Assembly: GCF_020009625.1 (NCBI RefSeq)
Contig: NZ_JAIHLP010000002.1
Span: 248,001-312,000, forward strand
Direction: 5' to 3'
Source: Leifsonia poae
GTDB lineage: Bacteria > Actinomycetota > Actinomycetes > Actinomycetales > Microbacteriaceae
Length of the DNA stretch: 64,000 bases
The translations under genes and the position numbers were made by a program. The notes below the pieces were generated by a model that was given only the letters and a program-made list of their open reading frames with translations, searched no databases and was not told the DNA's origin. This document shows positions 11,782 to 14,315 of this stretch, piece by piece; within the stretch, counting starts at the first letter, position 1, and each line of letters begins with the position of its first letter.

Positions 11782-13193
11782 GTGAAGACCACGGTCGAAA
11801 AGCTGAGCCCCACTCGTGCCAAGCTCACCATCTCGGTGACGCCGGAGGAGCTGAAGCCGTCCATCGCCCACGCTTACGAGCACATCGCCGAGCAGGTGAA
11901 CATCCCCGGTTTCCGCAAGGGCAAGGTTCCGCCGGCGATCATCGATCAGCGGGTCGGCAAGGCCGCCGTTCTCGAGCACGCCGTCAACGAGGGCCTCGAC
12001 GGGTTCTACCGTCAGGCCGTCGAAGAGAACGAGGTGCGTGTTCTCGGCCGTCCGGAGGCCGACATCACCGAGTGGCCGAACGAGAAGGACTTCTCGGGCG
12101 ACCTGCTGCTCACCATCGAGGTGGATGTGCGTCCCGAGGTGAAGCTCCCCAAGTACGACGCTGTGAAGATCACGGTCGACGCGGCCGAGGTCACCGACGC
12201 GGATGTCGACGAAGAGCTCGACACCCTGCGCAGCCGGTTCGGCACGCTGGTGACGGTCGACCGTCCGGCGAAGTCGGGCGACTTCGCCCAGATCGACCTG
12301 GTCGCCAAGATCGGCGGCAACGAGGTCGACACCGCCAGCAGCATCTCCTACGAGATCGGCTCCGGCGAGCTCATCGAGGGCATCGACGAGGCGCTCGACA
12401 CACTGACCGCCGGCGAGACCACCACGTTCGAGGCCCCGCTCATGGGCGGCGACCACGAGGGGAGGCCGCTGAGATCACGGTCACCCTGCTGGCCGTCAAA
12501 GAGCGTGAACTTCCGGATGCCGACGACGACTTCGCCCAGATCGCGAGCGAGTTCGACACCATCGGCGAGCTGAAAGAGAGCCTCAAGGGCCAGGTCGAGC
12601 GGGCGAAGACGTTCGGTCAGGGCACCAGCGCCCGCGACCAGCTCGTCGACAAGCTGCTCGAGCTCGTCGAGATCCCGGTTCCGCCGAAGGTGGTCGAAGA
12701 CGAGGTCCACCGTCACCTCGAGCAGGAGAACCGTCTCGAAGACGATGTGCACCGCGCCGAGGTCACCGAATCGAGCGAGAAGACGTTCCGCACGCAGATC
12801 CTGCTCGACGAGATCGCCCAGGCCGAGAAGGTCAAGGTCAGCCAGGACGAGCTCACCCAGTACCTCATCCAGGGTGCCGCCCAGTACGGCATGGAGCCGA
12901 ACGAGTTCGTCAAGATCCTGAGCGAGAACGGTCAGATCCCGTCGATGGTCGGCGAGGTCGCCCGCAACAAGGCGCTCGCGATCGTGCTCGGCAAGGCCGC
13001 TGTGACCGACTCGAACGGCAAGAAGGTCGACCTCTCCGAGTTCACGGCGCTGCCAGAAGACGACGAAGACGCAGAGAACGTCTTCGACGAGGTCGTCGAG
13101 ACGGCCGAGTCCGCCGACGTCGATGCCACCGCGGAGGAGCCGGCCGAGGAGAAGGCCGCGAAGCCGAAGAAGAAGGCCGCCGCCAAGAAGTAG
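11782..13193 (+). CDS. tig: Trigger factor (one apparent -1 frameshift)
   Basis: Ribosome-associated chaperone and peptidyl-prolyl isomerase of about 470 residues. The ribosome-docking signature GFRKGKVPP lies at about residues 44-52, the FKBP-type domain at about 160-240, and the C-terminal chaperone arms run to an acidic then Lys/Ala-rich tail ([10 protein letters not shown]). It starts with GTG at 11782 behind CAGGAGAA. The frame breaks at the G4 run 12459-12462. One extra G gives [19 protein letters not shown], the expected end of the isomerase domain. The rest of the protein is intact, so a sequence error is more likely than a truncated essential-type chaperone. Confidence 0.92.
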
Positions 13194-13203
13194 CAAACCG
13201 TGT

Positions 13204-13239
13204 CGAAAGGCCGGGCGCCGCAAGGCTCCCGGCCTTTCG
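13204..13239 (+). terminator. Terminator of tig
   Basis: A 12-bp stem (13204-13215 with 13228-13239) around a 12-nt loop, just after the stop codon. The 3' arm ends CCTTTCG. Confidence 0.7.
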
Positions 13240-13299
13240 CATACCCGTTGGGCGGGCGAGAGAGAGTGGACGCGGTCCGGACGAGGTAACGTTGGTTCC

Positions 13300-13411
13300 G
13301 ACAGTGCCTAGGGTTCCGTCCCCGCTCGGAGGATGCGGGGAGTCTGGTCCGAGCGGCACCACGGCGGAGCACCGCACCGCCGTCATCTGACAGGACAAAA
13401 GCCCGGAGGAT
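13300..13411 (+). promoter_or_regulatory. Guanidine-I (ykkC) riboswitch aptamer
   Basis: The three conserved blocks of the ykkC aptamer are present in order: CTAGGGTTCCG at 13308-13318, CTGGTCCGAG at 13344-13353 and GACAAAAGCCCGGAG at 13394-13408. Between them lie two hairpins (13319-13325/13335-13341 and 13361-13367/13377-13383), and the GGG of the first block can pair with the GCCC of the last. Guanidine-I riboswitches switch on guanidine export or degradation genes when guanidine binds. Downstream is an 8-bp hairpin (13416-13423/13428-13435), then the SD. I cannot exclude a ykkC subtype-2 aptamer (ppGpp, PRPP or nucleotide-binding), but the exporter-like gene favours guanidine. Confidence 0.78.
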
Positions 13412-13448
13412 CCCGTCGTCGTGCCGTCACGACGAACGAAAGGATCCC

Positions 13449-14315
13449 GTGCCTCCGCTCGCTCTCGGCCTCGTCATCGTCGCCGCTTTCGCCCACGCCG
13501 CCTGGAACCTCGCCTCGAAGCGGGCGAGTGCCACCGGGGCGCCGTTCATCCTGCTCGGGGCCGTCGCCTCGACCGTGCTCTGGGCACCCGTCGCGGGGGT
13601 CGAAGCCGCATTCGGTGAGGTGGACCTGCGCTGGCTGCTGCTGGGCTCGGGGGTCTCAGCGTTGATCCACGTCGGCTACATGTGGGTGCTGCAACGCGGG
13701 TACGCCGCCGGCGACATCTCTGTGGTGTACCCGATGGCGCGGGGGACGGGGCCGCTGCTCTCGGTCGTCTTCGCTATCCTGCTGTTCCATGAGCACCCGT
13801 CGGCTCTCGCCCTGGCGGGCGCGGCGGTCGTGATCGCGGGAATCGTCGGGATCGGGCTCTCCACCTCGCTCCCGGCTTCAGCCGGGCGACTGCTGGGCCC
13901 CGGGATCGCTTACGGTCTGCTCACCGGGGTGGCGATCGCGGTCTACACCCTGTGGGATGCGTTCACAGTGACCGACCTCGGCGTCTCGCCCGTGTTGTTC
14001 ATGGTCGGTTGCAGTCTGGGCGAGGTCGTGGTGCTGGCCCCGGTCGCGGTGCAGAGGCGGCCCGAGGTCGCCGCGGTGTGGCGGCGGTACCGCTGGCAGG
14101 TGATCGTCGTCGGAGTGCTCTCGCCGCTGTCGTACGTGCTGGTGCTCAGCGCCATCCGGCTCGCGCCGGTGTCGGTCGTCGCGCCGACGAGGGAACTCAG
14201 CGTCGTGCTGGTGAGTCTGGCGGGCTGGCTCATCCTCAAAGAGCCGAAGCCAGCACAGCGCATGGCGGGGGCGATCGTGGTGCTGGGCGGCGTCGCGATG
14301 CTGGCCCTCTCGTGA
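13449..14315 (+). CDS. EamA/DMT-family transporter under riboswitch control (candidate guanidine exporter)
   Basis: A 288-residue inner-membrane protein with about ten hydrophobic helices, in two EamA halves (about 1-140 and 145-288). The first half has YPMARGTGPLLSVVFAILLFHE and the second VVAPTRELSVVLVSLAGWLILKE, the paired signature of drug/metabolite transporters. It starts with GTG at 13449, behind GAAAGGA. The guanidine-I-type aptamer immediately upstream suggests the substrate is guanidinium or a related cation, by analogy with riboswitch-linked small multidrug exporters. That substrate is inference; EamA proteins also export amino acids and other metabolites. Confidence 0.85.
   Translation: MPPLALGLVIVAAFAHAAWNLASKRASATGAPFILLGAVASTVLWAPVAGVEAAFGEVDLRWLLLGSGVSALIHVGYMWVLQRGYAAGDISVVYPMARGTGPLLSVVFAILLFHEHPSALALAGAAVVIAGIVGIGLSTSLPASAGRLLGPGIAYGLLTGVAIAVYTLWDAFTVTDLGVSPVLFMVGCSLGEVVVLAPVAVQRRPEVAAVWRRYRWQVIVVGVLSPLSYVLVLSAIRLAPVSVVAPTRELSVVLVSLAGWLILKEPKPAQRMAGAIVVLGGVAMLALS

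Follow-up and report, generated by a model that had tools for sequence, protein, structure and literature searches.

In the 64,000-nucleotide stretch of Leifsonia poae DNA analysed here (the window; NCBI RefSeq assembly GCF_020009625.1, contig NZ_JAIHLP010000002.1, positions 248,001 to 312,000 of the forward strand), an open reading frame (ORF) for an EamA transporter of the drug/metabolite transporter (DMT) superfamily is directly preceded by a ykkC-type RNA at 13297-13411. The question raised by this locus is which compound the RNA senses. The original prediction, made from the sequence letters, had proposed guanidine, with the transporter as its exporter. Based on the letters of the RNA, its relatives and the genes that accompany it, we arrive at a different reading, to which we give a probability of about one half: a subtype 2d ykkC RNA which works as an ON switch at the level of translation, controls a DMT-superfamily exporter and has as its ligand a compound of aminophosphonate catabolism.

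Detection and fold of the RNA

The covariance-model search advised in the original prediction had a divided outcome. At the gathering threshold the Rfam scan of the whole window gave three tRNAs only and no ykkC, while a permissive scan of 13190-13460 gave a match to RF00442 (ykkC) which covers the model completely (1-107) at 55.9 bits (E 1.3e-9), short of the 63 bits of the gathering score. This was the sole match at E <= 10 in the genome (E 4.7e-9; 4.14 Mb, five contigs). R1 matched at the same position with 108 bits, the window being part of the R1 training set. With a covariance-model match that includes all conserved blocks, the RNA belongs to the ykkC family despite its sub-gathering score. 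The blocks are CUAGGGUUCCG (13308-13318), CUGGUCCGAG (13344-13353) and GGACAAAAGCC (13393-13403).

In an alignment of 25 relatives, the window RNA included, 95.0% of the pair cells of the aptamer helices are standard and 14 pairs show two-sided changes; slid structures pair at 24-54% only. None of 500 shuffles reached the observed value on any of five measures, and a larger alignment, A4 (75 rows fitted to the model, four of them weak matches), agrees. Folding energy was little informative (z -0.95), since 34 of 200 shuffles fold as well. The three ykkC blocks in order and the two hairpins read from the letters were thus located at 13308-13403, with covarying hairpin pairs, and the RF00442 match, the covariation and a Pfam EamA match (E 2.1e-17) bear out a ykkC-family riboswitch directly before a two-domain EamA/DMT transporter.

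Assignment to a ykkC subtype

Guanidine-I riboswitches contact their ligand through G33, A34 (in the AG bulge), G63, G64 (backbone) and the Hoogsteen edge of G81 (PMC11661666). A pyrimidine at the A position of the AG bulge marks subtype 2 (PMC6031431), and subtype 2d is an orphan ykkC class found ahead of EamA (phn_DUF6) and TauE transporters, its ligand undetermined as of 2020 (PMC7266159, PMC5912903). The window RNA has C13354 at the marker position, A13407 at the position of G81, and CAUCU in place of CACGG.

For comparison, RF00442 loci were collected regardless of gene context, and 67 of 70 were grouped (L028, L197 and L201 left out). Under this grouping into guanidine-I, 2d and other loci, which was set by the analyst after viewing the letters and neighbour genes, all 24 guanidine-I reference loci (17 from the same class as the window genome, seven Clostridial) carry the A marker (A34/A46), CACGG after helix P2 and GGGAG after helix P3, where the window RNA reads C, CAUCU and GGAGGA. 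The C marker was found in all 25 aligned 2d loci, CAUCU in 24 and GGAGGA in 24; L017 differs in both, with GGGGGA for the latter. These letters were taken from the alignment because a regular expression for the marker had misread three of 26 2d loci (L001, L006 and L016). The CACGG/CAUCU stretch can be aligned in two ways, cmscan opposing UCUGA to CACGG, and the motif is lost in both. The gene behind the 25 loci is an EamA gene in 23 and a TauE gene in two, as in the published subtype 2d context.

The riboswitches for phosphoribosyl pyrophosphate (PRPP) and guanosine tetraphosphate (ppGpp), subtypes 2b and 2a, have an ACAC-type motif and other genes behind them. Clostridial loci before purC-, purL-, ATP-binding cassette (ABC) ATPase- or ilvB-like genes, named by eye, have the C marker, with UACAC or CACAC after P2 in 8/10 (those parsed) and another 3' tail, whereas the window RNA has CAUCU and an EamA gene. 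Subtypes 2a and 2b were rejected by comparison with these loci, 2c standing outside the comparison, and guanidine-I membership was rejected on the pocket letters, the lost CACGG and the gene context. Assigned from the published description, the letters and the gene context rather than from a published consensus, the window RNA fits subtype 2d and is an ordinary member of this orphan class.

Guanidine as the ligand is not supported, A34 being replaced by C13354 and G81 by A13407, and CACGG being lost. EamA as a new architecture for guanidine efflux is given up with it, since an EamA gene behind a variant ykkC RNA is the published subtype 2d context (PMC7266159). The alternative which the original prediction itself had named, a subtype 2 aptamer with another ligand, is supported by the C marker and the neighbouring letters.

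Distribution and association with phosphonate genes

Among 199 genomes of the family Microbacteriaceae, an RF00442 RNA was found in 19, always below the gathering score; the family-wide search used stricter filters and some RNAs may be missed. In each of the 19 the gene behind the RNA is the single TIGR03340-like gene of the genome (E <= 1e-10), which in G106 is split over two frames. The TIGR03340 cutoff was reached in none of the 199 genomes.

The RNA closely follows an aminophosphonate catabolic pathway. The aminophosphonate oxidase HpnW (TIGR03364, over cutoff) was found in 55 of the 199 genomes, comprising all 19 with the RNA and 36 of the 180 without it (Fisher p 1.7e-12); by genus the figures are 14 of 14 RNA genera and 30 of 85 overall (p 3.8e-8). 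PhnX-like genes were found in 18 of the 19 RNA genomes (10 over cutoff) versus 46 of the 180 others. Of the 21 EamA carriers that lack the RNA, only six have HpnW (p 1.4e-6 against 19 of 19). The pathway is thus tracked by the RNA rather than by the transporter itself, and a link through the transporter only was rejected on this count. Within 20-kb stretches, PhnD, PhnC, HpnW and PhnX-like genes all lie within 10 kb of the RNA in 14 of the 19 genomes (PhnX-like is cut by the contig end in G176 and PhnD is partial in G106). In the other five, the window's genome included, all four genes stand together elsewhere. In six of the 14 (G176, G110, G140, G120, G031 and G096) the PhnD match follows the EamA match by 142-289 bases on the same strand. 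The PhnD neighbour is a Pfam Phosphonate-bd protein (E 2e-48) which passes the subfamily model TIGR01098, not the PhnD equivalog. In the representatives scanned, PhnC, HpnW and PhnX-like exceeded their NCBIfam cutoffs and a GntR neighbour fell below the PhnF cutoff. The window's genome has HpnW (402.6 bits), PhnX-like (244.8 bits) and HpnZ (446.2 bits) adjacent to one another, all over cutoff.

A pattern scan of named genomes listed at least 119 stretches, of which 105 were confirmed by R1 (71 of 80 and 34 of 39) and 14 were dropped without a convincing R1 match. All 105 confirmed loci among the matches listed are actinobacterial by title. Behind them stand 80 window-like EamA genes, three distant EamA genes (29-33% identity; Mycobacterium/Mycolicibacterium), two EamA genes of another type and 16 TauE-like genes, the remaining four RNAs lying at locus ends; L069 and L149 matched TauE over 41 and 72 residues only, and two TauE proteins were checked with Pfam. 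In these listed loci of at most 8 kb, PhnD was found in 30, PhnC in 24, HpnW in 13 and PhnX-like in eight. Going by their titles, the loci with phosphonate-gene matches belong to Microbacteriaceae, with three exceptions: L098 (Aeromicrobium) has PhnD and PhnC, L101 (no family in its title) has PhnD, and L108 (Mycobacterium) has a PhnC-like ATPase. In the Curtobacterium locus L178 the same RNA type precedes a TauE gene, and the 8-kb stretch also includes a PhnC-like ATPase. In eight Amycolatopsis and Saccharopolyspora loci (L074, L080, L106, L107, L112, L125, L131 and L144) a same-strand ORF of the glyoxalase/VOC family (Pfam on L125 only) follows the EamA gene, at about 50 bases or less in six of the eight.

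Expression platform

Across relatives, the motif GGANCC after P3 is complementary to a segment which overlaps the Shine-Dalgarno sequence. Covariation was assessed on 97 sequences, 71 of them from the 105 confirmed loci and 26 from elsewhere, which gave 83 distinct tails, identical ones being removed; the 34 later-confirmed loci were left out, L068 and L079 are without the motif, and the named and unnamed sets overlap and are not independent. The variable fourth base forms a standard pair in 79 of the 83 tails (CG 57, UG 9, AU 9, GC 3, UA 1) and fails in four. Tails pair with their own partners at 6.05 on average versus 5.66 when permuted, the maximum of 200 permutations being 5.78 and the best register being taken in both cases. 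In six tails (L017, L120, L125, L085, L119 and L077), all four failures among them, the best seven-base register lies away from the Shine-Dalgarno sequence. AU-type tails occur in Saccharopolyspora, Leucobacter, three Microbacterium loci and L007, that is in several lineages, and more than one change is therefore likely.

In the window leader the fold with the Shine-Dalgarno sequence shut is predicted at -70.2 kcal/mol, versus -66.9 kcal/mol for the aptamer fold. GGA at 13408-13410 is needed by both P3 and the Shine-Dalgarno helix, so that the two are mutually exclusive. Since the end of the aptamer pairs and covaries with the Shine-Dalgarno segment, the element is, by its anatomy, likely a translational ON switch. 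In the predicted switching, the terminal GGAUCC of the ligand-free aptamer would pair with the Shine-Dalgarno sequence and keep it closed; with ligand bound, the same bases would be held in P3, the Shine-Dalgarno sequence would be freed and the transporter translated. Coordinates of the RNA, the platform and the gene are given in Table 1.

Table 1. Features of the ykkC-type leader and the gene behind it (window coordinates)
Feature	Position	Strand	Evidence
ykkC-fold aptamer, subtype 2d type	13297..13411	+	RF00442 55.9 bits, E 1.3e-9; R1 108 bits
Conserved 5' tail CGACAG (CGAYAG in most relatives); last base is the first of P1	13299..13304	+	alignment A3, (nearly) invariant except Y
P1 5' strand GUGCC, partner GGCAC 13355-13359	13304..13308	+	one P1 pair UA in 4/25, CG in 21/25
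Variable hairpin 13319-13325/13335-13341	13319..13341	+	two-sided changes in 4/4 modelled pairs
Specificity marker C where guanidine-I has A (A34/A46)	13354	+	C in 25/25; marker rule PMC6031431
P2 hairpin 13361-13367/13377-13383	13361..13383	+	two-sided changes in 8/10 modelled pairs
P3 region: CAUCU 13384-13388, GG/CC stem 13393-13394/13402-13403, GGAGGA 13405-13410	13384..13410	+	alignment A3; comparison with guanidine-I and PRPP/ppGpp loci
A within P3 region where guanidine-I has G81	13407	+	own alignment
Putative expression platform: GGAUCC 13408-13413 pairs with GGAUCC 13442-13447 over Shine-Dalgarno	13408..13447	+	covariation; ensemble pairing probability 0.92-1.0
Inner hairpin of platform, 7 base pairs	13417-13423/13428-13434	+	inside GGAUCC/GGAUCC helix
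Shine-Dalgarno-like GAAAGGA	13438..13444	+	sequence; 4 bases before GTG 13449
EamA/DMT transporter ORF, GTG start, 288 aa, distant relative of TIGR03340 phn_DUF6	13449..14315	+	Pfam EamA 64.1 bits; TIGR03340 108.4 bits

The transporter gene

The 288-residue product matches Pfam EamA (PF00892; gathering score 28.2) with 64.1 bits (E 2.1e-17) in two stretches. It aligns over its full length with TIGR03340 (phn_DUF6) at 108.4 bits (E 4.9e-31), under the curated cutoff of 288.15. Hydropathy gave 12 windows, two pairs of which overlap, and is compatible with the 10 helices of the original prediction. Weak similarity was found to the small multidrug resistance (SMR) family (Pfam, sub-cutoff) and to EmrE. 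The best sequence-profile match among solved structures is LicB (E 4.8e-6), which we take to be a choline importer.

The gene is flanked by a trigger-factor gene and by clpP genes, named by eye from the translations. The trigger-factor gene is divided between two ORFs that overlap and differ in frame (11782-12573 and 12072-13193), which points to a frameshift or an assembly error. Several EamA orthologues without the RNA follow a pyrH-like gene (by eye), and two overlap a neighbouring gene. In L237 and L238 a regulator gene upstream, identified in L237 as RpiR/SIS by Pfam, overlaps with such an orthologue, and a ketopantoate-reductase-like gene lies nearby.

Ligand and alternative explanations

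PbfD1, a member of TIGR03364, oxidises N-methyl-AEP (AEP, 2-aminoethylphosphonate) to phosphonoacetaldehyde, with release of methylamine (PMC10590968). Because the RNA tracks the HpnW/PhnX-like pathway, and in view of this chemistry, we infer that the ligand is an aminophosphonate or a catabolite of one, the most likely candidates being AEP, N-methyl-AEP, 1-hydroxy-AEP and the aldehyde derived from AEP. The transporter, whose direction we take to be outward, would relieve the cell of an excess of such a pathway compound, or of a toxic analogue that enters through the phosphonate ABC importer.

Several observations weigh against this reading. TauE replaces EamA in the 16 listed loci mentioned above, 21 of the 40 EamA carriers are without the RNA, and L246 has the same trigger factor-EamA-clpP locus without it. 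Missed RNAs were looked for in these 21 carriers: R1 found none in 18, and the other three gave a single weak match, in L243 (10.5 bits, E 0.26), which lies some 2 kb ahead of the gene. HpnW is present without the RNA in the 36 genomes counted above, and clusters without it were found in G178, G164 and G111, G164 having all four genes. The HpnW statistics handle shared ancestry by genus only and leave genome size uncontrolled. PhnX-like reaches its cutoff in just 10 of the 19 RNA genomes and G106 is without a hit to the family, and in the window's genome the phosphonate cluster is 1.8 Mb from the RNA. Outside Microbacteriaceae, PhnD was seen only in L098 and L101 among the 105 listed loci. No PhnD, HpnW or PhnX-like gene was found in the listed 8-kb loci of Amycolatopsis, Saccharopolyspora, Mycobacterium/Mycolicibacterium, Kribbella and Labedaea, their whole genomes lying outside the search. 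For G604, whose RNA is of the TauE type, the surrounding 20 kb held no PhnD, PhnC, HpnW or PhnX-like gene. Phosphoenolpyruvate (PEP) mutase was over cutoff in none of the 19 RNA genomes, with sub-cutoff matches in 18; phosphonate synthesis by the RNA-bearing bacteria is therefore unsupported, and biosynthesis was rejected as the link to the RNA.

The alternatives differ mainly in the compound proposed. A subtype 2d RNA might sense a small toxic guanidine-like cation, as a proposal printed in 2018 has it, which EamA or TauE would export, the nearness to phosphonate genes being a shared neighbourhood only. The weak SMR and EmrE similarity of the transporter is in keeping with this, as is its frequent standing alone, the next gene being on the other strand in many loci (for example Microbacterium with c3 next); the HpnW cluster is however present in every RNA genome and linked in 14, and A34 and G81 of the cation pocket are replaced by C and A, so that we regard a cation as unlikely, though worth keeping in mind. 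We consider it improbable that the RNA senses, and EamA and TauE export, a product formed at the end or on the side of this pathway (methylamine, acetaldehyde, glycolaldehyde or phosphate), or else an analogue of the sulfonate or phosphite type. Genes of the TauE/SafE family, annotated as sulfite exporters, do stand behind the same RNA in those 16 listed loci, and the TIGR03364 enzyme yields methylamine besides phosphonoacetaldehyde (PMC10590968). None of the results counts directly against this possibility, but volatile small aldehydes and amines would hardly need an exporter.

With the same RNA and ligand class, EamA might also import the phosphonate, the switch then serving uptake induction and not relief. 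The LicB match would suit an importer, but all 19 RNA genomes already possess an ABC importer's PhnD and PhnC, and we have little confidence in this possibility. The two readings that place the RNA in another ykkC class fare worse. A ppGpp, PRPP or nucleoside-diphosphate aptamer (subtypes 2a to 2c) shares the C marker through the Clostridial loci described above, yet those loci differ in the letters after P2, the 3' tail and the gene context, which makes it very unlikely, with 2c standing outside that comparison. A guanidine-I riboswitch driving a guanidine exporter would agree with RF00442 as the best Rfam match and with a DMT superfamily transporter downstream; given the sub-gathering score, the three departures from all 24 guanidine-I loci and the EamA or TauE genes behind the 25 aligned loci, we attach almost no credence to it.

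The aminophosphonate reading may extend to subtype 2d as a whole, although we hold this at somewhat short of even odds. Subtype 2d would then be a class of riboswitches that sense an organophosphonate from aminophosphonate catabolism, with the guanidinium site traded for a phosphonate site, and would guard, through its transporter, against self-poisoning by phosphonate import and degradation. The 2020 review lists subtype 2d as the ykkC subtype with its ligand still to be found (PMC7266159). In the open-licence literature searched, where a subscription paper could be missed, subtype 2d was named by the 2018 and 2020 papers only and no later report of a ligand was found. The co-occurrence with one catabolic pathway in 19 of 19 genomes reduces an otherwise open search for the ligand to a few compounds. 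If borne out, it would add a carbon-phosphorus ligand to the riboswitch range and show the ykkC scaffold moving between cation and oxyanion.

Other ykkC variants among the reference loci

Several further variants were met. The Clostridial locus L203 has, near 1501-1606, a G marker (GAGGG) and GGCACC after P2 before a thiC-like gene (by eye), possibly another ykkC specificity. L045, L046, L053, L055, L061, L068 and L079, from distant actinobacteria, form a second variant group (CACCU or CAUCU after P2; 3' UCGAG in most) before a different EamA branch. L062, from a distant genome of the phylum, has a divergent variant with CACCU after P2 and a GGAGGG tail; the ORF behind it, judged by eye, is an EamA of the window type. 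A 2d-like variant precedes a transporter of the major facilitator superfamily (Pfam MFS_1) in L027, from a genome of the same order, and in L026, with GGCACC after P2, the nearest long downstream ORF is transposase-like by eye.

Comparison with known systems

The window RNA agrees with the published subtype 2d candidate (PMC7266159, PMC5912903) in its ykkC core, the changed guanidine pocket and the EamA (phn_DUF6) or TauE gene downstream; compared by description and not by published consensus, no distinguishing feature was seen. Neither the covarying platform nor the HpnW/PhnX-like link was found in the descriptions consulted, and both appear to be new here. The transporter resembles TIGR03340 (phn_DUF6, phosphonate utilization associated putative membrane protein) in its full-length alignment and in the linkage to phosphonate genes in 14 of 19 RNA genomes of the family, and differs in scoring 108 bits against a cutoff of 288. 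The catabolic cluster is likened through family matches to the HpnW/PbfD, PhnX-like and HpnZ cluster (TIGR03364, TIGR03351, TIGR03366; PMC10590968): HpnW is in every RNA genome and all three are over cutoff in the window's genome.

With guanidine-I (RF00442) the window RNA shares the overall fold and the CUAGGGUUCCG, CUGGUCCGAG and GGANAAAAGCC blocks, but it has C for A34, A for G81, no CACGG, longer conserved tails and another gene context. The PRPP and ppGpp riboswitches have the C marker and conserved tails in common with it; they differ in CACC(G) or CACU after P2, where the window has CAUCU, in the 3' tail, and in standing before biosynthesis genes instead of a transporter. Bases of the PRPP 5-phosphate site (PMC6031431) are kept in the window RNA, namely G48, C49 and, in one alignment, C78; these would suit a phosphonate group, a likeness which is suggestive only.
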